Of a DNA stretch of 64,000 nucleotides, positions 12,464 to 63,502 are shown one piece after another (the first letter of the stretch is position 1; every line of letters starts with the position of its first letter). Both the position numbers and the translations under genes were made by a program. This DNA is from Chloroflexota bacterium (GTDB taxonomy: Bacteria > Chloroflexota > UBA6077 > FW602-bin22 > JACPRP01), in contig JAMCWX010000046.1 of assembly GCA_023480885.1 (NCBI GenBank), positions 62,001-126,000 on the forward strand, read 5' to 3'. The notes under the pieces are model-generated. The model did not search any database. It was not told the origin of the DNA and saw only the letters and a list, made by a program, of their open reading frames with translations.

Positions 12464-14680
12464 GTGGACGACTATAAGGCGTTTCTTGAATCGAAGAGGC
12501 TGGTTGTCAGGTCAACGGGGATTGATGTCTCCCTGGATGAGTTGAATGTTTCCGCAAAACCCCATCAAGTCGACTTGACGATGTGGGCACTTCGGAAGGG
12601 ACGCGCCGCGATTCTGGCCACAACGGGCATGGGTAAGACCCTGATGGAGTTGATGTTTGGTCAGCAGGCTGCGGAAAGGTCATTGATTCTTGCGCCCTTG
12701 GCCGTAGCGTACCAGACCGTCAGAGAGGGTGAGAAGTTTGGAATTGACGTGACCTATGCCCGAAATGAAAGCCAGGCTCCCCGTCAAGGAATAACGGTCA
12801 CGAACTACGAATTACTGGAACATTTCGACCCCGACAATTTCGGAGCCGTAATACTCGACGAATCCGGAATCCTGAAATCTTTTGAGGGGAAAACTAGAAC
12901 CGCACTGATTGAGAGATTCAGGTATACGCCTATGCGCCTTTGCTGTTCCGCAACGCCAGCTCCGAATGATATAGCCGAGATTGCTAACCACGCAGAGTTC
13001 TTAGGGATTATGACGCGAGTTGAGATGTTGGCGGCGTTCTTTGTCCATGATGACAAGGGTTGGAGATTGAAGGGCCATGCTCGTGAGCCGTTCTATCGGT
13101 GGTTGGCTTCTTGGGCGATGTCATTACAGAAACCAAGTGACTTGGGGTATTCGGATGATGGGTATATCCTGCCAGAGTTGACCATTGACCCCATCATCAT
13201 TCCCAGCGATTACGTGCCTGAGGGTCAGTTGTTCGCTATCTCACTCAAAGGCGTGTCGGACAGGGCTCGAGTCCGAAAAGCCACAATGATGCAACGAGTG
13301 CTGGTAGCGGCAGACCATATAAAAGCAGAGCCGAATGAGCAGTGGCTAGTCTGGGTTGGCTTGAATGATGAAGGGCGAGAGTTGGCGAAGATGATTCCAA
13401 GCTCAGTACTCGTGGAAGGTAGCCAGTCGCCTGACGAAAAAGCCGATGCGTTAACCAGATTCGCTAACGGCGAAATTAAGGTTCTTATCAGTAAGGTGTC
13501 TATCGCGGGGTTCGGAATGAATTTTCAGAGTTGCGCCAGAATGGTCTTCGTTGGGCTCGGTGACAGCTATGAACAGTATTTTCAAGCAATCCGGCGTTGC
13601 TGGCGTTTCGGTCAGAAGCGACCAGTCAAGGTTCACATTGTCCTAACCGACTTGGAGGAAACGATTTACGAGAATGTTTTACGGAAAGAGAAGGAAGCTG
13701 AAGCCACGGCGGCAGAGCTTGTCAAGCACGTGGCTGAGTTCGAGAAAGCCGAGATAAGCACGGTGGATAGGGGTAGTTTTATGTACGAAACGAAAGATGA
13801 GAGCGGGCAAGGCTGGCGCTTCATGCTGGGGGATAGTTCCGAGAGATTGCGAGAGTTGGAATCGCATAGCGTTGACCTATCTATTTTCAGTCCACCTTTC
13901 CTGAACCTATATACATATTCCAACACGGAGCGTGACTTAGGCAACAGTTCCACGACTAGACAGTTTTGGTCTCATTTTCGATTCATCATCAGGGAATTGG
14001 CTCAGCTGACAAAGCCAGGGCGTAATGTCTGCGTTCATGTCGCTCAAATCGCTAAGCAAAAGTCTAAGGATGGAGTGATTGGCTTGCGCGATTTCAGGGG
14101 TGAGACTGTCAGGCATTTTGAGCGAGCAGGGTTCGTGTTTCACGGAGAGGTGTGTATCGACAAAGACCCCCAAGCCGTTGCTATCCGCACTCACTCAAAG
14201 GGCTTGGCTTTCATTCAGCTTAGCAAGGATGCAAGTTGGATGCGTCCGACGATTGCAGACTATATCCTGGTCTTTCGTGCTCCCGGCGAAAATCAAGTGC
14301 CGATTCATCCAGATATCACCAACGATGAATGGATAGAGTGGGCCCGGCCAATCTGGTACGGAATCAAAGAGGGTGAAACATTGAATGCTTCTGAGGCTCG
14401 CAGTGATGACGATGAGCGTCACATTTGCCCACTTCAACTGGGCACCATTGAGCGCTGCATCAGGCTTTGGAGTAATCCGGGGGAGTTGATTCTTTCTCCC
14501 TTTGGCGGAATTGCGAGCGAAGGATACCAAGCCATTAAGTTGGGTCGTCGATTCATTGGCGTTGAGTTAAAACCTGAGTATTTCCAGGCGGGTCTCAAAA
14601 ATCTCCGTGAAGCCGAACGCCTAGCCAAGCAAGTTGATTTGTTTCAGTGGGCCGAGGGGGAATCGGAGGCGGTATCGTGA
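12464..14680 (+). CDS. SNF2/DEAD-type helicase fused to a DNA methyltransferase
   Basis: helicase: ATTGMGKTL, VILDESGILKSF, SATPAPND, FVGLGDSYEQYFQAIRRCWRFGQKRPV; MTase: DLSIFSPPF and GELILSPFGGIASEGYQAIKLGRRFIGVELKPEYF. Confidence 0.85.
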   Translation: MDDYKAFLESKRLVVRSTGIDVSLDELNVSAKPHQVDLTMWALRKGRAAILATTGMGKTLMELMFGQQAAERSLILAPLAVAYQTVREGEKFGIDVTYARNESQAPRQGITVTNYELLEHFDPDNFGAVILDESGILKSFEGKTRTALIERFRYTPMRLCCSATPAPNDIAEIANHAEFLGIMTRVEMLAAFFVHDDKGWRLKGHAREPFYRWLASWAMSLQKPSDLGYSDDGYILPELTIDPIIIPSDYVPEGQLFAISLKGVSDRARVRKATMMQRVLVAADHIKAEPNEQWLVWVGLNDEGRELAKMIPSSVLVEGSQSPDEKADALTRFANGEIKVLISKVSIAGFGMNFQSCARMVFVGLGDSYEQYFQAIRRCWRFGQKRPVKVHIVLTDLEETIYENVLRKEKEAEATAAELVKHVAEFEKAEISTVDRGSFMYETKDESGQGWRFMLGDSSERLRELESHSVDLSIFSPPFLNLYTYSNTERDLGNSSTTRQFWSHFRFIIRELAQLTKPGRNVCVHVAQIAKQKSKDGVIGLRDFRGETVRHFERAGFVFHGEVCIDKDPQAVAIRTHSKGLAFIQLSKDASWMRPTIADYILVFRAPGENQVPIHPDITNDEWIEWARPIWYGIKEGETLNASEARSDDDERHICPLQLGTIERCIRLWSNPGELILSPFGGIASEGYQAIKLGRRFIGVELKPEYFQAGLKNLREAERLAKQVDLFQWAEGESEAVS

Positions 14681-34706: not shown

Positions 34707-34864
34707 TACGAGTGCAGTACATCTACAGTGAGGCGCTAAAAAAGACGATTGGATGCCGACATGTCGATAACTTAGGTAGAGTAACAACACTGCCCTTGAC
34801 AGGCAAGACTAACATCAAGGCTATAGAAAACCTGCTCCAGGCTCGGGCGCTGGAGGTGAAGTGA
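34703..34864 (+). CDS. hypothetical 53-aa protein
   Basis: MIRVQYIYSEALKKTIGCRHVDNLGRVTTLPLTGKTNIKAIENLLQARALEVK. Confidence 0.45.
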   Translation: MIRVQYIYSEALKKTIGCRHVDNLGRVTTLPLTGKTNIKAIENLLQARALEVK

Positions 34865-35991
34865 TGGCTTGGACGCTCACGGACGGCTCGCAATGGAACT
34901 ACCGCCAGAAGATCAGTGTCAACACCAACGGCATCGGCTTGGGCGGCAATGTGACTGCGCCGCAAAATATCCACATCGGTAACATTGCGACGTTCATTGG
35001 CGGGAACAATTTTTGGGCCAAGGTGAGCAGCACCAGCGGCTACATCGCCGTCACGAGTAGCGATGGCTCAACGGTGCTGGACTACGCCATCAAGGACTGG
35101 AATTACGCCGCGCAGGATATGTGTGTTGATGTGGAGCACACCTGGCAGAGCGGGGCCGACACCATCATCTACCTGTACTACGGCTATGTGTCGGGCGGGA
35201 CGTACCCGAAGGGGGCGAGCGATTTCGCCAATACATACGACGCCAATGCCAGGGCCGTCTACTGCATGAAGGACGACCCGGACAACGGCACGGTGCAGGA
35301 TTTGACGGCCAACAACTATGACGGCGCCAAAGCGGCGGCAGGTCATCCTGCCGAGGCCGTGGGGGCGGCGGGTAGGGGCCAACTCGGAGATGGCATCGAC
35401 GACAGCATTAGCGTCAGTTCGCTGATGTTCCCCTACTCCAACAACTTCACCGTGGAGTTCTGGTTCCAGAACAATGGGGACACGTCCTGGGCTTTCGCCG
35501 GGGCGCAGGCCGGCGGTAATGCAGGCATCATCTTCGACTTCAACCTACACCTTGCAAACAACATTGGCTTCGTAAAAATAAACGTGTACAATTTATTTTA
35601 CCCATGGGGCGCAGATAACAACAAGCATCACCTTGCATTTAAACAAACACCTACAGGAATGCATATCTGGATGGATGGGGCAGGCGTGATTAACAACACC
35701 AACGGCGCATCGTCCTTAGACCCGAACACAGGTTTCTGTCTCCACGCTCGCAACATATCCGGCAGCGTGGGCGATTGGTTCAAGGGGTTGCTGGACGAGT
35801 TCACGGTATCCAATGTCGCCCGGAGCGACGATTGGCTAATGATCCGCTACCAAGGCGTTAATAGACAGGACGACTGGGGTACGGTGGGCGTGAACTATTT
35901 GCAGGCAGACACAGCTGAATGTAGTTATATTCCTGAATCGCGTGGGGCTGGTCGCGGCGTTCTAGTTGCCGTCGGAAGGGGGATAGCGTAG
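34864..35991 (+). CDS. DUF2341-like + LamG/concanavalin-like protein (putative adhesion/receptor-binding)
   Basis: WNYRQKISVNTNG...ENLHIGN-type N-terminus; FTVEFWFQ...HHLAFKQTPTGMHIWMDG...LLDEFTVSNVARSDDWLMIRYQG. Confidence 0.65.
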   Translation: MAWTLTDGSQWNYRQKISVNTNGIGLGGNVTAPQNIHIGNIATFIGGNNFWAKVSSTSGYIAVTSSDGSTVLDYAIKDWNYAAQDMCVDVEHTWQSGADTIIYLYYGYVSGGTYPKGASDFANTYDANARAVYCMKDDPDNGTVQDLTANNYDGAKAAAGHPAEAVGAAGRGQLGDGIDDSISVSSLMFPYSNNFTVEFWFQNNGDTSWAFAGAQAGGNAGIIFDFNLHLANNIGFVKINVYNLFYPWGADNNKHHLAFKQTPTGMHIWMDGAGVINNTNGASSLDPNTGFCLHARNISGSVGDWFKGLLDEFTVSNVARSDDWLMIRYQGVNRQDDWGTVGVNYLQADTAECSYIPESRGAGRGVLVAVGRGIA

Positions 35992-37057: not shown

Positions 37058-38065
37058 ATGCTTGCTCTGCATCTCGCCAATCAAACCGATACCGACGCTG
37101 CTCGTGTTGCGCCACTCTGTGACGACTTCATTGTGCTGAGCATTTTCCCCCAGCAGATGCCAGCAATCCGAGCCAGCAATCCAAATGCTCGGTTCCACGT
37201 GCGATGGTGGCTTGACAAAGGGGCATTGCCTGATTCACTTCAAGAGGCACGCAAGGCAGCAGCTTGGTGGGCAACTTGGGGTGCCTATGTTGCCTCTTCC
37301 CGTTGTGGAAATGAGGGCAATTTAGAGACGCCACACACAGCGCAGCAATACATGGCCTGGCAAATGAACTTTGCGTTTGAGTTGCACAGGTTGATACCAG
37401 GCATCTCGCTTTGGTTACCTGCCCCTTCGCCTGGAATGGCAGATTCCCCCGATTGGGTGCAGGGCATGGCTGATTGCGCGAGAGAAAACCCTGACCTGTT
37501 TATCGGCCTTGACGCGCACGCCTATGGTACACCTCAAGAGGTCGACGGGGTTCTATCGGTTTTTAGGCACCACTGGCAAGGGCCGTTGAACGTCACGGAA
37601 TGCAATTTTGGCGCTGGGCGGCAATGGGACTTGAACGCTTATGCTGCTGCTTTGCCTGAATATTTGGCCGTTGCACGAAAGCACAAGGTCAACTTTCTTG
37701 GGTTCTTCATCTGGGTTTGGAACAATCCTGATATGAAGTTGCCGACTACGGCAAGCATCAAAGACACGCCGATGGAAACGGCGATGAGAAACTATGTTGA
37801 TGGAGGTGAAACTGTGGCTTGGGATAGGCACGCAGTCTACGACGAGTGGCAGAAGCTCTTCGGCGGCCAGGGATACAATCCTGGGGATGCTTTCGGTCAG
37901 ATCATCAAGAGTAATCCCGATCGAGAATACGGCGTCTTCGTGGGCGGCTACCACGTCGAAGAGCCTTTCATCTACGCGTATACGACAGTCGGCATCTTCT
38001 GCTACGACAAGCGGAGCAGCAAAGCGGTGTTTGCGACTAGTGAGGAAGAGCTCCCTTTCTCTTAG
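37058..38065 (+). CDS. glycoside-hydrolase-like TIM-barrel protein (putative lysin N-terminal part)
   Basis: ARFHVRWWLDKG, ISLWLPAPSPGM, LNVTECNFGAG, VNFLGFFIWVWNNP; ends at TAG 38063-38065 just after a slippery heptamer. Confidence 0.55.
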   Translation: MLALHLANQTDTDAARVAPLCDDFIVLSIFPQQMPAIRASNPNARFHVRWWLDKGALPDSLQEARKAAAWWATWGAYVASSRCGNEGNLETPHTAQQYMAWQMNFAFELHRLIPGISLWLPAPSPGMADSPDWVQGMADCARENPDLFIGLDAHAYGTPQEVDGVLSVFRHHWQGPLNVTECNFGAGRQWDLNAYAAALPEYLAVARKHKVNFLGFFIWVWNNPDMKLPTTASIKDTPMETAMRNYVDGGETVAWDRHAVYDEWQKLFGGQGYNPGDAFGQIIKSNPDREYGVFVGGYHVEEPFIYAYTTVGIFCYDKRSSKAVFATSEEELPFS

Positions 38066-38103
38066 ATCCGTCAGTCAGTCAGGTAATACTACTGGACTGG
38101 CGG
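38053..38103 (+). promoter_or_regulatory. predicted -1 programmed frameshift signal (lysin)
   Basis: C_CCT_TTC 38053-38059; 8-nt spacer with the 0-frame TAG; 9-bp stem CCGTCAGTC(38068-38076)/GACTGGCGG(38095-38103). Confidence 0.65.
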
Positions 38104-38187
38104 GAAAGTGACTTCATTGCAAGAAGCATTGGCACGGATGGCAACGGGCGTTATTTCCGAAAGCGCAACCAACCGATTACAGGTGCA

Positions 38188-38673
38188 TTGATTCACAATA
38201 CTGGAGGAATGGAGAGCATTGAGGCTGATAACAATTATCATAGACAAAAGGACTGGGGAGAGGGTAGCCGGGCGCCGCACATCGCTTATACATTGTGGCT
38301 TCCCTATGAGCCAATGGCCTTTCTGGTTGCGTACGGTATCGCCTGCGATGAGCAGAATCCGCCGAAAGGCGTGGCTGTGCTCTGTAACTATCTTTGGGAG
38401 CGCACCTGGCACGGCACGAATGCCAACGATAGCTGCCTCGGCGTTACCTGCCAGGTTGACGGCGAGAGCCAGGAGTTGAGCGAAAGTCAGAAGCTCGCTG
38501 TTACCTGGTTGCTCAATGAGTGGCTGCCAGGCCAGGGGGTGAACATTCCGAAAGGCAATGTCTGGGGGCACGGGGAAACGCCGAATGTCTACGGCGGCGG
38601 GCCTGATTTTGGCAACAATACTGTGTGCCCGGGGAAGTATGTGCTTCCCTGGGTCAAGAGTTTAAGAAGTTAG
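38188..38673 (+). CDS. N-acetylmuramoyl-L-alanine amidase-like domain, probably expressed from 37058 by -1 frameshift
   Basis: -1 frame open from 38053: PFLLDPSVSQVILLDWRESDFIARSIGTDGNGRYFRKRNQPITGALIHNTGG...GHGETPNVYGGGPDF..TVCPGKYV. Confidence 0.7.
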   Translation: MIHNTGGMESIEADNNYHRQKDWGEGSRAPHIAYTLWLPYEPMAFLVAYGIACDEQNPPKGVAVLCNYLWERTWHGTNANDSCLGVTCQVDGESQELSESQKLAVTWLLNEWLPGQGVNIPKGNVWGHGETPNVYGGGPDFGNNTVCPGKYVLPWVKSLRS

Positions 38674-38685
38674 AAAGGATGCTTT

Positions 38686-39159
38686 ATGTTCAATCAGTTT
38701 CTACAGACAATTCTGGAAAACAATCAACTTCGCGTCCTCTTCTGGTTGCTTATCGGCGACCTTATATCCCTGCTCGCCTTTAGCATCTTCAGCAAGAAAC
38801 TAGATTTGGAAGAGGCGTTAGGTTTCTACCAGACGCGATTGGTGCCTGCCCTGCTCGGCTACGTTGCGATGCTCGCCCTGGCTCAGGCCGATGTGAATAA
38901 TACCTGGCATCTGGCGGACGCAGCTAATGCGGCCTGGCTGGTGCTTATTGGCTTGTTACTCGTCGATGCGTATTCGCACTTAGAGAAAGTCGGTATACCT
39001 GTTCCCAAGTCCATCTCTAAGCAGAACGTTATGCGCATCGACGATGCGGTGAGGCTGCTGAAAGCGTCGAGCCCACTCAGGCCAGGCAAAGACATAGTGT
39101 TGCCAAGCGTCTCGACCGACGCCAAGGAAAAGCCCGACTCGCGCCGGGCTCCCGTATAG
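38686..39159 (+). CDS. putative holin
   Basis: multi-TM protein next to lysin. Confidence 0.5.
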   Translation: MFNQFLQTILENNQLRVLFWLLIGDLISLLAFSIFSKKLDLEEALGFYQTRLVPALLGYVAMLALAQADVNNTWHLADAANAAWLVLIGLLLVDAYSHLEKVGIPVPKSISKQNVMRIDDAVRLLKASSPLRPGKDIVLPSVSTDAKEKPDSRRAPV

Positions 39160-39890: not shown

Positions 39891-39947
39891 CTTGTCGTAG
39901 ACCGAAGGCCACGTTTTTGGATAGTTCCAAGCGTGGCCTTTTTGTTT
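39891..39947 (+). terminator. leader/terminator element copy B
   Basis: CTTGTCGTAGACCGAA then GGCCACG(39907-39913)/CGTGGCC(39932-39938) then TTTTTGTTT. Confidence 0.7.
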
Positions 39948-39957
39948 GGGAGCAGAG

Positions 39958-42264
39958 ATGCCAGTCAAGATTCGACCCAACGCTATACGGGTTAAATTCG
40001 GTACTCTCCTCAAAGAGGCGCATCCCTACGATTCGATTCAGTTGACGGGTGAGGCGCCGAGCGATTGGAGCTATTACCGTGTCATTGCACTCAGGGCCGA
40101 TATCCCCAATTCTAACGGAGATTGCTTTCCCCTTGCAGAACTTACCGAGGCCCACAAGACATTCCTCGGTCAGCATTTTAGGCTGAACCACGATCAGATT
40201 TCCGATCAGGCTGTGAGAGGCAAGGTGTTCGATGCCGTGCTTGTTGAGCATCCGCAAGGCGCGTATCCCCAGGTTTGTGGGGCAGAGTGCAAGGCGCACG
40301 TTGAATGCCTAGTCGGCATCGACACTTCGAGCTTTCCTGACTTGATTGCAAGCATTGACCAGGGCAACCTGGACGTGTCGATGGGTTGCGTCTGCGAATC
40401 AGCTTCCTGTTCGATTTGCGGGAATGTCGTCACGGACGATTACCAGGAGCCGTGTTACCACATCCAGTATTACAAGGGTTCTACGTGGAATGGCAAGCCA
40501 GTTTATGAGATCATTCATAAGCCTGAGTTTGTGGAGTTGTCCAAGGTTGAGGATGGAGCCGATGAAGCGGCGGTGATTTTGGAGCGGGTGGCAAGCAAGA
40601 ATGGTGAAGGATTCACTGATAAGCTGAGCAACTTGTTCAAGGTCATTGCGCGACGACTTGGAGTGAGTGTGGAGGACTTGGAGCGCGAGGCGAGACTGGA
40701 ACGGAAACCGAGTGCAACGCTACTGGCGTTGAGGGAGAACAGGCAGGCGGAGAGATATCGGGAGTTGATTGCCGAGGACTACAAGTACGGTTCAACGCAA
40801 TTCGATTTGCCAAAAGAGATTGCCGATGTTGTTCTAGCTTTCGGAAAAAGCATTCCGCCCGAGGATTTGGCCCCTGATGGCGTTGAGGATAACCCACACA
40901 TCACGGTCAAGTACGGGATTAAGGATCAAGCAGAAGATGCGCTGGAAATACTACAAGATTTGCTCATCGACCAGCCGCCAGTCAAGGCGTCCTTTGGGCC
41001 TGCTTCGCTGTTTGAGAACGATGATTTTGACGTGCTGAAGTACGACGTGAAAAGCCCAGCACTTCACAATCTGAATGCCAAAATCGCTGGGGTGCTGGAC
41101 ACCGTTAACACGCAAGATGAGTACGTGCCACACGTGACTGTCGCTTACCTCAAGCCAGGACGGGGTAGGGATTACGTCGGCAACGATGATCTGATAGGCA
41201 AGTCAGTCACATTGGATAAACTCATGTTCTCTGGCAAAGACGGTGAGACAGAGGCGATCAAGCTGACGGGAAAAGCGACTGAAGCCAGCCGTAAGTGTAA
41301 GGCCGGTAGCGCCGTCTACCAATGGAAGATGGAATCCGACAAAAGGGTCTGTGGGGAGAATCGACAGACAGCCAAATACCGACAATTGAAGGCGAAAGCA
41401 CCCACGTTTGATTACGGGGTAGCCAAGTCAATAATTGAGGAAGGTATGACTATCACCGATTGGTGGACTGATCCTAATTATAACAAGGATGAACTCGTTG
41501 AGTGGTTTGGTGAAAATGCTTTGAAGAGAGGCGTTGAGCTTGCGTTACAAGATGGGGGGCGAATTCCTGCTGATGTGCTGGCTGATTATCCTGATCTTGT
41601 GGCTAAGTATGGCAAGCAAGCAGAGTATTCGAAGCATGCGGCGCCTGCTAGAAAAGTGAAGGCCGCAACCACCTACGAATGGGTCACCCAACAAGACGAA
41701 AAAGTCTGTGAATCTTGCGCTGCAATGGACGGCGAAACCCGCGAAGCGGACGACACTTACAAGAATGGGGTTGATAGGCCACCGCTACATGATCACTGTA
41801 GGTGCTCAGAGCGTCGCGTGAGTGGCGCAAGCCGACAGATTGACTACAAGCAGAGGCGAGAGGCCCAAGCTACCTGCAAACCCACTTCTGCGTTATTAGT
41901 CAAGGGAGACGATTCGCTCTTTACGCAAGAGTTACGGAGTTATTGGAATAGCTGTACCCTTCTAATAGAATCATATAAGGGGCTAGTGGAAGATGCCAGT
42001 GAGATTGTTCAGGAGCTTGAAGAGTTTCGGAATGAGGCTAACGAAAGTGACCTCAACGAATATATCTCAGCAATAGTGGAAGACTACAGTCCGAATGTTG
42101 GTGGCAAAAGAGATGTCGTTGCTCTTGCCCTCAGAGACATTGACACTGAGGTAGCTAAACTCCAACAGTTGCAGCTATCCCTTAATCGCAAACCCACTTC
42201 GGCATTACTTGCTCTGCGCACTCTAAGGCGCCGAGAACTTCGAAAGGAGATTACAACGAAATGA
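39958..42264 (+). CDS. multidomain head protein: prohead-protease-like + 2H phosphoesterase + MuF-type C-terminal domain
   Basis: NSNGDCFPLAELTEAHKTF..LNHDQ...LDVSMGCVCESASCSICGN; HITVKYG...HVTVAYL; VCESCAAMDGETR...PPLHDHCRC. Confidence 0.65.
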   Translation: MPVKIRPNAIRVKFGTLLKEAHPYDSIQLTGEAPSDWSYYRVIALRADIPNSNGDCFPLAELTEAHKTFLGQHFRLNHDQISDQAVRGKVFDAVLVEHPQGAYPQVCGAECKAHVECLVGIDTSSFPDLIASIDQGNLDVSMGCVCESASCSICGNVVTDDYQEPCYHIQYYKGSTWNGKPVYEIIHKPEFVELSKVEDGADEAAVILERVASKNGEGFTDKLSNLFKVIARRLGVSVEDLEREARLERKPSATLLALRENRQAERYRELIAEDYKYGSTQFDLPKEIADVVLAFGKSIPPEDLAPDGVEDNPHITVKYGIKDQAEDALEILQDLLIDQPPVKASFGPASLFENDDFDVLKYDVKSPALHNLNAKIAGVLDTVNTQDEYVPHVTVAYLKPGRGRDYVGNDDLIGKSVTLDKLMFSGKDGETEAIKLTGKATEASRKCKAGSAVYQWKMESDKRVCGENRQTAKYRQLKAKAPTFDYGVAKSIIEEGMTITDWWTDPNYNKDELVEWFGENALKRGVELALQDGGRIPADVLADYPDLVAKYGKQAEYSKHAAPARKVKAATTYEWVTQQDEKVCESCAAMDGETREADDTYKNGVDRPPLHDHCRCSERRVSGASRQIDYKQRREAQATCKPTSALLVKGDDSLFTQELRSYWNSCTLLIESYKGLVEDASEIVQELEEFRNEANESDLNEYISAIVEDYSPNVGGKRDVVALALRDIDTEVAKLQQLQLSLNRKPTSALLALRTLRRRELRKEITTK

Positions 42265-51361: not shown

Positions 51362-51718
51362 ATGACAGAAGCTAACACAGATGATCCCCTGATCCAAGTC
51401 TTTGGCGGAGTAATGATTGGCTCAGCGCGGGTGATGGGCATAGATGTCAAAATGCGAACCCTCACGAGTAGCGAAGTCCAGGACATACTGGCGCAGTGTC
51501 AGTCCATCCAGGATACGCCGTTACGACTTCACAAGGAAATGAGCCTAACCCTTGCGTACTCCCTTTTAGAAGTGGCTGGCAACGCACTCCCAGAATTGAT
51601 CGGTGAGCGAGTGACACTGATCGGTAGCTGGCGCCAGACGATCATCGACAAATTAGCTACTGCCTATGGGGAATTAACCCAAAAAGAGCGGCTGTTAATC
51701 GATGAACTAAAAAACTGA
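51362..51718 (+). CDS. tail assembly chaperone (G-like)
   Basis: between tube and tape measure; ends at A_AAA_AAC-TGA. Confidence 0.75.
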   Translation: MTEANTDDPLIQVFGGVMIGSARVMGIDVKMRTLTSSEVQDILAQCQSIQDTPLRLHKEMSLTLAYSLLEVAGNALPELIGERVTLIGSWRQTIIDKLATAYGELTQKERLLIDELKN

Positions 51719-51753
51719 CTTCCGACCCTCGCAGTCGAAACTTGTGGAGGGTC
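51709..51753 (+). promoter_or_regulatory. predicted -1 programmed frameshift signal (tail chaperone)
   Basis: A_AAA_AAC 51709-51715; 8-nt spacer; GACCCTC(51724-51730)/GAGGGTC(51747-51753) stem. Confidence 0.8.
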
Positions 51754-52032
51754 GTGACTGGCTGTAGCTTGTGGCGCGACCGAGATATTACGCCACTTCA
51801 GATGACCTGGGCGATGATGAATGCCCAGCAAGATGAACGTGAAATAGTAGAGCGGGAGAGTAGGCTATACAAGGCTCTATACAACATCGTTCACGGTAAC
51901 CCCGAAAAGACGGGGGCGTTGCTCTTTGGGCAAAGAGAGGTTTCCATAGATCCGGACTTTGAGGCTGAAATGAATAGCGATTTGTGGTGGGGTGAAGCTG
52001 ACGAGTCGAAAGGAATAAACTGGAATGATTGA
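51742..52032 (+). CDS. tail assembly chaperone T-like extension (-1 frame)
   Basis: -1 frame open from 51709; no good RBS for the TTG start. Confidence 0.75.
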   Translation: MWRVVTGCSLWRDRDITPLQMTWAMMNAQQDEREIVERESRLYKALYNIVHGNPEKTGALLFGQREVSIDPDFEAEMNSDLWWGEADESKGINWND

Positions 52033-53659: not shown

Positions 53660-54256
53660 ATGCAACGACTGAGCATTGGAGAACACGTCTTCTACGTCAA
53701 CCCTGAAGAGGTAGCTGTTTCTGTCAAGTCTAACGCCGTGGCCCAGCGCACCAAGGGTGGCGAGTCTATTCAAGTCTTTCAGGCCGACGACGAGACGATC
53801 ACGATCACGGGAACGACGGCTAACGCAGGACTGAAAGAATTGGAGGCGATACAGCAAGCCATATATCCCAGCGTGCACATTCTCTTCATATATCCGTACA
53901 AGAGAATGAGTCGTACTGTTCGAGTGTTGAGCTGCGTCTACACTGATTCCGCGAACAACAGGCCGAATCTTTACCAATACCGTATAGAGTTGATGGTAGA
54001 GAAGCCGCCGGCGGGTACGATCATCTCTGCATTGTCAACCAGTCAGCAGAACGTATATTCTACGGGCTCGGTTATTGAGATAATCGCCGCTGATGGGGAT
54101 GACATCGCTTCGGTCATTCAGGCGGCGAATCAGCAAGTAGGCAATACTCTCTATACGGATTACAACTCATTCGAGCAGCGCATTCGTGCCATCAATCCTG
54201 ACATCAAGAATTGGAGTAGCATTCCCGAAGGCACGAAGGTCTGGATACCAGGATGA
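53660..54256 (+). CDS. LysM-like tail/baseplate protein (XkdP-like)
   Basis: C-terminal YNSFEQRIRAINPDIKNWSSIPEGTKVWIPG. Confidence 0.65.
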   Translation: MQRLSIGEHVFYVNPEEVAVSVKSNAVAQRTKGGESIQVFQADDETITITGTTANAGLKELEAIQQAIYPSVHILFIYPYKRMSRTVRVLSCVYTDSANNRPNLYQYRIELMVEKPPAGTIISALSTSQQNVYSTGSVIEIIAADGDDIASVIQAANQQVGNTLYTDYNSFEQRIRAINPDIKNWSSIPEGTKVWIPG

Positions 54257-56325
54257 CAGGTTTTCGCAATCTCACCGTGTATCCCGATTATAGGGTTATC
54301 ATCACGCCACAAGGACAGCAGCCGATTTCCTTGCGTAAGCTGTCCAGTATCAGCACGCGCGTCTTTATGGGCGCGAGTGTCAGTGATTGCTCTATCGGGA
54401 TCGTGGACGCCGATGCCGAGGCGTACCATCTCTTCGACGCGATGGACGTAATAACCGTCGACTTCAAGGCGATTGACGGGAACTTCTACCGCGCTTTCAC
54501 TGGCTACCTGGACAGCGTGACGGAGAGATTCGACGTCGGCGGCGGTAGAGGCGTGGCGATTCAGGCTTCATCGCCGTATAAACTCTTCACGATCACAGCC
54601 ATGACGCCAGATCAACAAATACAGTTCACGATGTTCTCAGCTACTGAGCCATTATCCACGGATGTGCTGAATATGCTCTGCGACTTCGTGGGGTTACCGA
54701 AAGAGCAACGCGTTTTCAGCATCAGCAACGATGCGCGCTTGAAGCCAAGTTTCGAGATAGACTACTCAGGCTTCATCGGGCCGATGCTGAACATGGCCGA
54801 GCGACAGGCCATCGCGCCACTCGTGCAGATGGTGGCAGAAAACTCCTCACACGAGCTTTACTTCAATGAGTATGGCGCTATGGTCTACAGGGACGTGGAT
54901 TTCAGGCAGGATGCTCGCACGCCTATCGTGATCAATGACCTGTGGGTAATCAACCACGACATCAGTCGTGGCGATAAGTACTTCAAGTCGGAGATACAGG
55001 TGTTTGGCGATGCTGCCGTGGGTGGCAACCAATACGGCAACCAGAATACTGTCATACTTGACCTCCAAAACGTAGTCGGCGCCGAGGTTGCGCAGAGCGC
55101 CCAGCGATACCGTGAACGCTACGCATCATACCATGCCAACTGGCTTTTCCAGAGAGATGACATAAAGCGCTACGCCGATTTCCTGATGCGCTTATCCGTC
55201 AACTCAGCCGTGCAGTGCTCGCTGACGACAATCGGCTTGCCCGAAGCGAGACTGGGCGCAACGCTACAATACCCGAGCGCTGGCAAGGCGTTCAACATCC
55301 AGGCCATCAGCCATCACTACACGGAGAATCAGGGCTTCACGACGACCTTCGGCCTGGCTTACGGTAGAGCCATTGTTGGGCGAAGCATCGAGGTTTTCCC
55401 TGTCGAGGTCGAACGGGTGACCCTCAGCGCACCGAGTGCATCGGGAAAGAAAGCGCAACCTCAGCCGCCTAATCCGCAAGCTGGAGATGTGGTGAGTTAC
55501 GCCAGGTCACAGATTGGCAACTCTTATGTCTGGGGCGGTAGCGATCCGAATGTCGGCTTCGATTGCAGCGGCCTGGTATGGTGGGCTTACAAGCAGGTTG
55601 GCATTTCAATCGAGAGACAAAGCTACTTTCAGTGGGCGGAGTTCATTCCCGTCAACACGCCACCGATCAACTTCGATGATTTGGATCCGGGTGACTTGGT
55701 TTTCTTCAGCACTGATGGCAAGGGTGGTGCGAGCCACGTCGGCATGTACAGCGGCAACGGCAAAATGATCAATGCGCCGAACTTCGGCATTCCTGTCCGA
55801 GAGGAAGCAATAGCAGGTTCCTGGCTCTATCAGTACATCGGGGCAAATAGACCATCAGGCAGGCCAAAGATAAAGCAGCAATCCGCCGCCGAATCTGCTA
55901 CTTCCAGTGGCATTGTGCCCGGCTTTGCGAGCCCTCTCAGCAAGCCATACACAATCCTGAGCCGCTATGGCGACAGAATCGACCGCGACTCCCCGAACAA
56001 CGGCATCGACATTCAAGTTGCTGCCGGCACATCAGTTTACGCCGCAGCCGGTGGACAGGGCTCGACGCCAGGCACTTATGACCCCCTGAATGAGGGCTGG
56101 GTAGTCGAAGTAGCTCATTCAGGCGGCTGGAAAACACGCTATACGTATCTCTTGAGACCAGCGCAGGACATACTTGACCATAACAATATCCCCGTGGACA
56201 ACAAAACCGTCATTGGCTACGTGGGCCATTCTGGAAGGGCGCGGGGAAGCAGCGCTTACCTGCACTTCGAGATAATCACGCCGTCAGGAGATCACGTCGA
56301 CCCGGAGAGTTACATCACATTCTGA
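54253..56325 (+). CDS. baseplate hub with NlpC/P60 and M23-like domains
   Basis: GNSYVWGGSDPNVGFDCSGLVWWAYKQ...ASHVGMYSGN; NNGIDIQVAAGTSVYAAAGG...IGYVGHSGRARGSSAYLHFEI. Confidence 0.75.
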   Translation: MTGFRNLTVYPDYRVIITPQGQQPISLRKLSSISTRVFMGASVSDCSIGIVDADAEAYHLFDAMDVITVDFKAIDGNFYRAFTGYLDSVTERFDVGGGRGVAIQASSPYKLFTITAMTPDQQIQFTMFSATEPLSTDVLNMLCDFVGLPKEQRVFSISNDARLKPSFEIDYSGFIGPMLNMAERQAIAPLVQMVAENSSHELYFNEYGAMVYRDVDFRQDARTPIVINDLWVINHDISRGDKYFKSEIQVFGDAAVGGNQYGNQNTVILDLQNVVGAEVAQSAQRYRERYASYHANWLFQRDDIKRYADFLMRLSVNSAVQCSLTTIGLPEARLGATLQYPSAGKAFNIQAISHHYTENQGFTTTFGLAYGRAIVGRSIEVFPVEVERVTLSAPSASGKKAQPQPPNPQAGDVVSYARSQIGNSYVWGGSDPNVGFDCSGLVWWAYKQVGISIERQSYFQWAEFIPVNTPPINFDDLDPGDLVFFSTDGKGGASHVGMYSGNGKMINAPNFGIPVREEAIAGSWLYQYIGANRPSGRPKIKQQSAAESATSSGIVPGFASPLSKPYTILSRYGDRIDRDSPNNGIDIQVAAGTSVYAAAGGQGSTPGTYDPLNEGWVVEVAHSGGWKTRYTYLLRPAQDILDHNNIPVDNKTVIGYVGHSGRARGSSAYLHFEIITPSGDHVDPESYITF

Positions 56326-62139: not shown

Positions 62140-63264
62140 TCACTGTTGAGTTGAGCATTCTCTCAGTATCCTACTCATCATCCTCGCTATTTCCTCATCC
62201 TGCTTCTTGATTGCGTGAGCATAGATTGACATCGTGATGTTGGCATCGGCATGGCCAAGCCGAGCGGAGACAGCGGTTATCGGAAGATTGTTCCCCAGTA
62301 GCAGGGTGGCGTGTAAGTGCCGTAGTTGATGGGGACTAATCTCCCTTATCCCCAGCTTCTTGCATTGCCTGGTCAAGGCATGCTCAATCATTGATCGGCC
62401 TAGAGGTTCACCTTGAATAGTCGTGAAGATCAACTCGTTATCTTGCCAAGCGTCACCTGCCTTGCCGTGCCACTCTATTTGTTGCTCCTGTTGTCGCTTC
62501 AGAGCGTCGACACCCTCAGGGGGCAGCGCGATTGTTCTGAATCCAGATTCCGTTTTCGGGGCATTTTCTAGCCACTCGCCCTTAACCTTGCGTAAGCTTC
62601 CCCTTATCGTGATTGTGCCGTTAATCAAATCGACATCTGACCAGTGCAAGGCCATTAGCTCTCCGATGCGGCAACCACTGGCCGCAGTCACGAGCCACAA
62701 CGGGCCTAGTCGATGTTCCCGTGATGCTTTGAGGAAGGCGCGCAGTTCTTCGGGACTCCATAGGCTCTTACGCTCTGACTTGCTTCGAGGAACGAGTACC
62801 CTGTCGGCAGGATTGCTGACTAGCCAACCCCAAAGAACAGCCATCTTCAAGGCTCTATGTAGAAGGGAATGAACGAAACTGGGTATACGCTTTCGTCCTT
62901 TGGCGCTCAGGTCATTGTAAAGCATCTGTAGATGTGCGGGATTAAGATCACGAAGTTTGATGCGTCCCAGCCGTGGCCTGATGTGGCGGTCGCAGATATC
63001 CTGATAGTCGGCAATCGTGCCAGCTCGTAGGGAATGACTCGCCGTCTCAAGCCACAGGCCTAGCAAATCATTGACGGTCTTACGGCCAGGATCGGGAAGC
63101 GTGTTGTCGCTACCGATGGCGCGTTGCAGTTCTGCGAGTTTACGTTTTGCCTCTCGCTCGGTCTTGGCGTAAACCGTTTTGCGCTTGCCGTTTATCTGTA
63201 GACTGGCACACCATTTACCGTCAGAACTTCTTCGGTAGACGGTGCCAGCGTTGCCCGAGGGCAT
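62140..63264 (-). CDS. int: tyrosine recombinase / phage integrase
   Basis: TAASGCRIGELMALHWSDVD; HQLRHLHATLLL; VSARLGHADANITMSIYAHA. Confidence 0.9.
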   Translation of the reverse strand: MPSGNAGTVYRRSSDGKWCASLQINGKRKTVYAKTEREAKRKLAELQRAIGSDNTLPDPGRKTVNDLLGLWLETASHSLRAGTIADYQDICDRHIRPRLGRIKLRDLNPAHLQMLYNDLSAKGRKRIPSFVHSLLHRALKMAVLWGWLVSNPADRVLVPRSKSERKSLWSPEELRAFLKASREHRLGPLWLVTAASGCRIGELMALHWSDVDLINGTITIRGSLRKVKGEWLENAPKTESGFRTIALPPEGVDALKRQQEQQIEWHGKAGDAWQDNELIFTTIQGEPLGRSMIEHALTRQCKKLGIREISPHQLRHLHATLLLGNNLPITAVSARLGHADANITMSIYAHAIKKQDEEIARMMSRILRECSTQQ

Positions 63265-63420
63265 CTGATTGTCCTCTCCGATGCCCTGGCGCTTGTTCGT
63301 GTAGCAGAAATGTAGCAGCGAGTTGGTGAATTGACGCTACATCGTCTGCGGTGAGGGATAACCTGGAAGGATTAGCTACAACATATTGTGGTTGATCCGC
63401 CTAAACGCTGCAAGACCGGG

Positions 63421-63502
63421 TGGGGAAGCGGGGACTCGAACCCCGACGCCTTTCGGCACATGATCCTAAGTCATGCTCGTCTACCAGTTCCGACACTCCC
63501 CC
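63421..63502 (-). tRNA. tRNA-Leu (anticodon UAG)
   Basis: minus strand GGGGGAG...GACTTAGGATC...GGGGTTCGAGTCCCC...CTTCCCCA; 7-bp acceptor, class II variable arm. Confidence 0.9.

Follow-up and report, generated by a model that had tools for sequence, protein, structure and literature searches.

Candidate programmed −1 frameshifting between a glycosidase and an amidase in the lysin locus of a Chloroflexota prophage

A prophage in a Chloroflexota draft genome has a glycosidase frame that ends at a TAG stop codon and, across this stop, an open −1 frame for an amidase whose conserved sequence begins before any ATG, GTG or TTG. How is this amidase frame translated? The first-pass annotation of the locus proposed that a programmed −1 frameshift fuses the two enzymes, and the locus was analysed here by computation.

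Two lytic enzymes in overlapping frames

The window, which is the whole stretch of 64,000 nucleotides analysed (G000:C14:62001–126000), lies within a 138-kb contig of a 3.09-Mb draft genome (MAG). It carries genes for terminase, portal, major head protein, tail sheath and baseplate proteins, and the prophage is a myovirus. The flanking genes of the contig look cellular, resembling SpoVR, PrkA and RuvC/RuvA by eye. Because such genes lie on both flanks and an integrase with tRNA-Leu closes the window, the element is regarded as an integrated prophage. It has only remote relatives, Bacillus phage G and mycobacteriophages among them, and no related phages were found in IMG/VR by a search based on the major capsid protein. 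The features of the lysin locus and of the sites compared with it are listed in Table 1. The small hydrophobic protein adjoining the lysin may be the holin of the lysis region, on a weak match. Directly upstream of this region, a Laminin_G_3 (concanavalin-like) domain protein is encoded at 34861–35991.

Table 1. Features of the lysin locus and of the sites compared with it (window positions unless stated otherwise)
Feature	Position	Strand	Remarks
0-frame ORF, TIM-barrel glycoside hydrolase and C-terminal domain	37058–38065	+	335 aa, 37.6 kDa unshifted
Glycosidase C-terminal domain	37808–38056	+	without Pfam match
−1 frame ORF, N-acetylmuramoyl-L-alanine amidase (Amidase_2)	38044–38673	+	ends at TAG 38671–38673
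Slippery heptamer C_CCT_TTC	38053–38059	+	one sense codon, then the 0-frame stop
0-frame stop TAG	38063–38065	+	
Candidate stimulatory hairpin	38068–38103	+	9-bp outer stem and inner pairs; 8-nt spacer 38060–38067
Amidase N-terminal segment before the first possible start	38080–38187	+	homologous to other amidases; without ATG, GTG or TTG
Predicted fusion junction peptide			ELPFLLDPSVSQ
Small hydrophobic protein adjoining the lysin	38686–39159	+	probable holin; Phage_holin_4_1 E 0.065 (below cut-off) and hydrophobic segments
Predicted tail-assembly-chaperone −1 frameshift	51362–52032	+	A_AAA_AAC 51709–51715, hairpin after 5 nt
Tyrosine integrase and adjoining tRNA-Leu	62140–63502		window's end; likely one prophage end
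Second glycosidase lysin	L006 1450–2846 (G000:C66)		SLT lysozyme in −1, then small hydrophobic protein

The glycoside hydrolase domain of the 0-frame ORF covers about residues 1–250 and is followed by the C-terminal domain of about 80 aa. The glycosidase is homologous to viral and MAG glycoside hydrolase (GH) proteins. Glu86 (37313) and Glu181 (37598), at NE and (T/S)E, are invariant in all five homologues and are likely the catalytic carboxylates. No Pfam match was obtained for the glycosidase, including PF11790 (Glycosyl hydrolase catalytic core). The paralogue P0003 scores just over the PF11790 cut-off and the 0-frame protein has no match; therefore only a family resemblance, to a clan-A-like TIM barrel, is claimed. 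The C-terminal domain may be a cell-wall-binding or linker domain, which would sit between both enzymes in a fusion. When it was compared by BLAST with the corresponding domain of the L029 amidase, no match was found. AlphaFold gave poor models from single sequences (pLDDT 38 and 41).

The −1 frame was correctly described as open at 38053 in the first-pass annotation, but its opening lies earlier, at 38044, directly after TGA 38041–38043. It matches Amidase_2 (PF01510) with an E-value of 1.7e-6 and 28.9 bits against a cut-off of 26, and the match begins at residue 42, upstream of TTG 38188. The zinc ligands His51 (38194), His176 (38569) and Cys195 (38626) are invariant in the amidase alignments. 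The first TTG of this frame is at 38188 and the first ATG at 38209, as had been claimed. Profile searches yielded two further amidases, both from a single genome within the same phylum. The segment before TTG 38188 aligns with them at the conserved positions D-x-R and R-x-RN-x-PI, and by itself it reaches E 0.005 against one of the two. Because the segment is homologous to other amidases, translation of the amidase has to enter from upstream of 38188, where no ATG, GTG or TTG is present.

Relatives of the lysin were sought in viral contigs by scanning for the glycosidase pattern HAYG...E(C)N. In L046, the GH domain is 37% identical to the 0-frame glycosidase over 261 aa (E 1e-37) and an Amidase_2 domain follows in the same ORF; L038 (28% identical) also carries Amidase_2 in the same ORF. 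L037 has the GH domain plus a GH25 lysozyme, and in L040 the GH domain runs on into a second barrel-like region without Pfam match. A search with alignment A5 returned the contig of L046 again and nothing else. L010, L035, L036, L039, L041–L045, L047 and L048 were rejected as pattern matches that are unrelated or due to chance. L046 and L038, single-ORF lysins of uncultivated viruses, share with the prophage lysin a homologous GH domain followed by Amidase_2. In contrast to the prophage lysin, both of their domains are in one frame, and a separate glycosidase product is not implied. Among the relatives found, the usual arrangement is thus a glycosidase coupled to a second lytic domain. Because these viral relatives carry the second lytic domain in one ORF, a glycosidase–amidase fusion is to be expected as the product of the prophage locus.

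A slippery heptamer and a hairpin at the overlap

The 0-frame ORF ends with GAG GAA GAG CTC CCT TTC TCT TAG. This end, the heptamer C_CCT_TTC and the 9-bp stem with one G-U pair eight nucleotides after it were all reported before, and each was found again at the same place. The outer stem is formed by CCGTCAGTC (38068–38076) and GACTGGCGG (38095–38103). RNAfold added the inner pairs and gave −19.3 kcal/mol (z −4.05), a value as good as which was seen in 0 of 200 shuffles. The spacer of 8 nt agrees with the rule that a stimulatory structure lies about 5–8 nt downstream (PMC4066793). C_CCT_TTC is the only heptamer among the five possible slip positions in the ORF overlap, and no site other than that of heptamer and hairpin would allow a −1 shift to connect both frames.

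The rarity of these elements was estimated from the genes of the window. In-frame X_XXY_YYZ heptamers occur at 42 of 17,001 codon positions (0.25%), which corresponds to about 1.2% over five slip positions. At 0.28% of gene positions, a fold of −19.3 or lower has its first pair 5–9 nt downstream. The joint chance of heptamer and hairpin is about 3.5e-5 under this strict fold criterion and about 2e-3 when all hairpins with a span of at most 65 nt are counted. In the permissive search, which used mixed phage and cellular contigs, −18 or better was reached at about 13% of positions, and the hairpin is unremarkable by this criterion. Across 337 kb of the genome, there are 24 in-frame heptamers at which a −1 shift adds at least 50 codons to the ORF. 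Only two of them are followed by a 51-nt fold of −15 or better at a spacer of 5–9 nt, namely the site at 38053 and the tail-chaperone site at 51709.

The second site belongs to the same prophage. A_AAA_AAC closes a small ORF there, the −1 ORF runs to 52032, and the tape-measure gene starts at 52025; the hairpin has −17.5 kcal/mol (z −1.34). This layout is predicted to be the classical tail-chaperone arrangement. A gpG/gpGT-type tail assembly chaperone of tailed phages resembles the lysin locus in its overlapping 0 and −1 ORFs, its heptamer just upstream of the stop, its downstream hairpin and its fusion product, which is the minority form and would be so in the lysin as well. The two differ in the heptamer (A_AAA_AAC versus C_CCT_TTC) and in what is joined: parts of a chaperone in the one, two catalytic cell-wall hydrolase domains in the other.

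For shifting in E. coli, UUC and UUU rank with the better codons in the A site, and heptamers in which X and Z are both pyrimidines generally outperform mixed ones; given a moderate stimulator, shifting exceeds background for 55 of 64 heptamers (PMC4066793). C_CCT_TTC is below the top-efficiency class of bacterial slippery sites.

A second glycosidase lysin is encoded on contig C66, which was assigned to the same genome bin. Its glycosidase is a paralogue (25% identical, E 2e-15). The 3′ end reads CTC CCT TTA GCG TGA in C66 versus CTC CCT TTC TCT TAG in the window, with the same distance from heptamer to stop. C_CCT_TTA thus lies one sense codon upstream of the stop, and a hairpin follows 5–7 nt downstream. 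The C66 lysozyme has its own GTG, and because this GTG overlaps the stop (GTGA), ordinary coupling may account for its translation. The C66 heptamer could also stem from chance or from peptide-level similarity. Direct homologue searches of IMG/VR, of phages and plasmids and of GTDB contigs, with seeds or tblastn, gave no match, and no close homologue of the lysin gene was found; C66 is one further case, distinct from conservation within the window's gene. A tentative extension is that the glycosidase module has a frameshift joint that can be reused, made up of CTC CCT TTN, a single codon, the stop and a hairpin, to which different prophages of the host append different second enzymes. Amidase would then be appended here and SLT lysozyme in C66, and the fraction of joined molecules might, equally tentatively, fix how much single-action lysin is made relative to the double-action form.

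How the amidase frame may be read

The homology of the segment before TTG 38188, the fused relatives and the finding of no usable separate start together give good support, at the level of sequence, to glycosidase and amidase being one bifunctional lysin. The way in which they are joined is best explained by programmed −1 frameshifting, which is reasonably probable because heptamer and hairpin are rare in combination, the prophage has an independent tail-chaperone signal of the same design, and the same slippery site ends the C66 GH lysin. To this extent the frameshift-made bifunctional lysin of the first-pass annotation stands.

Under programmed frameshifting, two enzymes would be made from one start. 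Most ribosomes would stop at TAG 38063 and release the glycosidase with its C-terminal domain. A minority would be held by the hairpin while CCU occupies the P site and UUC the A site, and the slippage of CCU/UUC to CCC/UUU, at whatever rate, would let reading continue in the −1 frame. The shifted product would be a glycosidase–linker domain–amidase of 538 aa and 60.1 kDa, and the earlier figure of about 68 kDa is corrected accordingly. Both products may act in lysis.

The same arrangement could arise if a single in-frame glycosidase–linker–amidase ORF had been split by a 1-nt deletion, be it through an assembly error or through genuine mutation as the prophage decays, with heptamer and hairpin being coincidental. 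The single-ORF fusions L046 and L038 are also expected if a recent deletion split the gene, the sequence is from a MAG, and decay is possible because the element is integrated and flanked by cellular genes. However, a deletion demands the coincidence of about 3.5e-5 to 2e-3 calculated above, and the C66 lysin has the same slippery site. The 25-nt zone has no homopolymer longer than 3, and no other convincing broken plus-strand gene was seen in the contig, the prophage being otherwise intact. We regard the deletion as unlikely. Transcriptional slippage was ruled out by the lack of a long homopolymer.

A separate amidase, started at a non-standard or weak codon (CTG 38092, ATT 38116 or TTG 38188) and translationally coupled to the glycosidase stop, was weighed against Shine-Dalgarno energies with a gene median of −7.5 and a random value of −3.1. 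CTG 38092 (−3.9), TTG 38188 (−3.4) and ATG 38209 (−2.4) are near random, and a bare ATT at 38116 is the sole candidate above this level (−7.5). ATG, GTG and TTG are all freely used by the window's genes, an AGGT precedes CTG 38092, and in C66 a GTG does overlap the TGA. In the prophage lysin, however, the −1 codon overlapping the 0-frame stop is TTA, which is no start codon. CTG 38092 is part of the hairpin stem, and starting there would truncate the conserved beginning of the amidase; TTG 38188 loses conserved sequence and leaves a zinc His at position 3. The viral relatives, moreover, are fused. A separate start is quite improbable on these grounds. That the amidase frame is silent and the glycosidase alone is the lysin would fit the codon usage of 38065–38187, which is neutral (1.5 bits; as low in about 15% of coding segments and as high in about 32% of non-coding open segments). 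But Amidase_2 is over the cut-off, the zinc ligands are kept, the N-terminal segment is conserved, and after 38188 the codon score is normal, with the −1 frame intact over 209 codons. A silent frame thus has hardly any likelihood. These comparisons leave programmed −1 frameshifting as the preferred reading.

Precedents and other enzymes of the prophage

Frameshifting is established for phage tail and capsid genes, whereas proposals of it for lysis enzymes are rare to our knowledge. The first-pass annotation considered a frameshift-made lysin unusual, a view weakened by at least one cited precedent. A prediction study counts lysins among the known frameshift genes and cites the lysin of a Lactococcus phage, which is encoded by two overlapping genes (PMC10885494). 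Like the prophage lysin, this Lactococcus lysin (Shearman 1994), as cited there, has two overlapping reading frames and is counted as a frameshift case; homology between the two is not implied. In Lactobacillus phage Sabazios, the lysin is likewise split into two slightly overlapping ORFs and a frameshift was considered, but in contrast to the prophage lysin no slippery sequence was found (PMC7260188). Endolysins with two polypeptides from internal starts, such as CTP1L (PMC4777826) and phi2638A (PMC12203907), are common according to a survey (PMC9430671). They resemble the prophage lysin, as predicted, in having a long and a short isoform per gene. In contrast, their short form is the C-terminal part from an internal start, whereas here it would be the N-terminal enzyme released by normal termination.

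If programmed frameshifting is true, recoding would set the ratio of mono- to bifunctional lysin, a form of control over lysis that has seldom been described beyond structural genes, and annotation pipelines that split or truncate lysins could miss second catalytic domains. The lysin locus is a compact test case, for which the tail-chaperone frameshift of the same prophage offers a comparison.

Other multidomain proteins are encoded in the window. A Mu F-like head protein (39946–42264) has a 2′-5′ RNA ligase/LigT-like domain inside, and a SNF2/DEAD-like helicase is fused with an N6/N4 DNA methylase in a single ORF (12464–14680). A baseplate or tail protein with NlpC/P60 and M23 peptidase domains (54253–56325) represents a second set of cell-wall enzymes, located in the virion.
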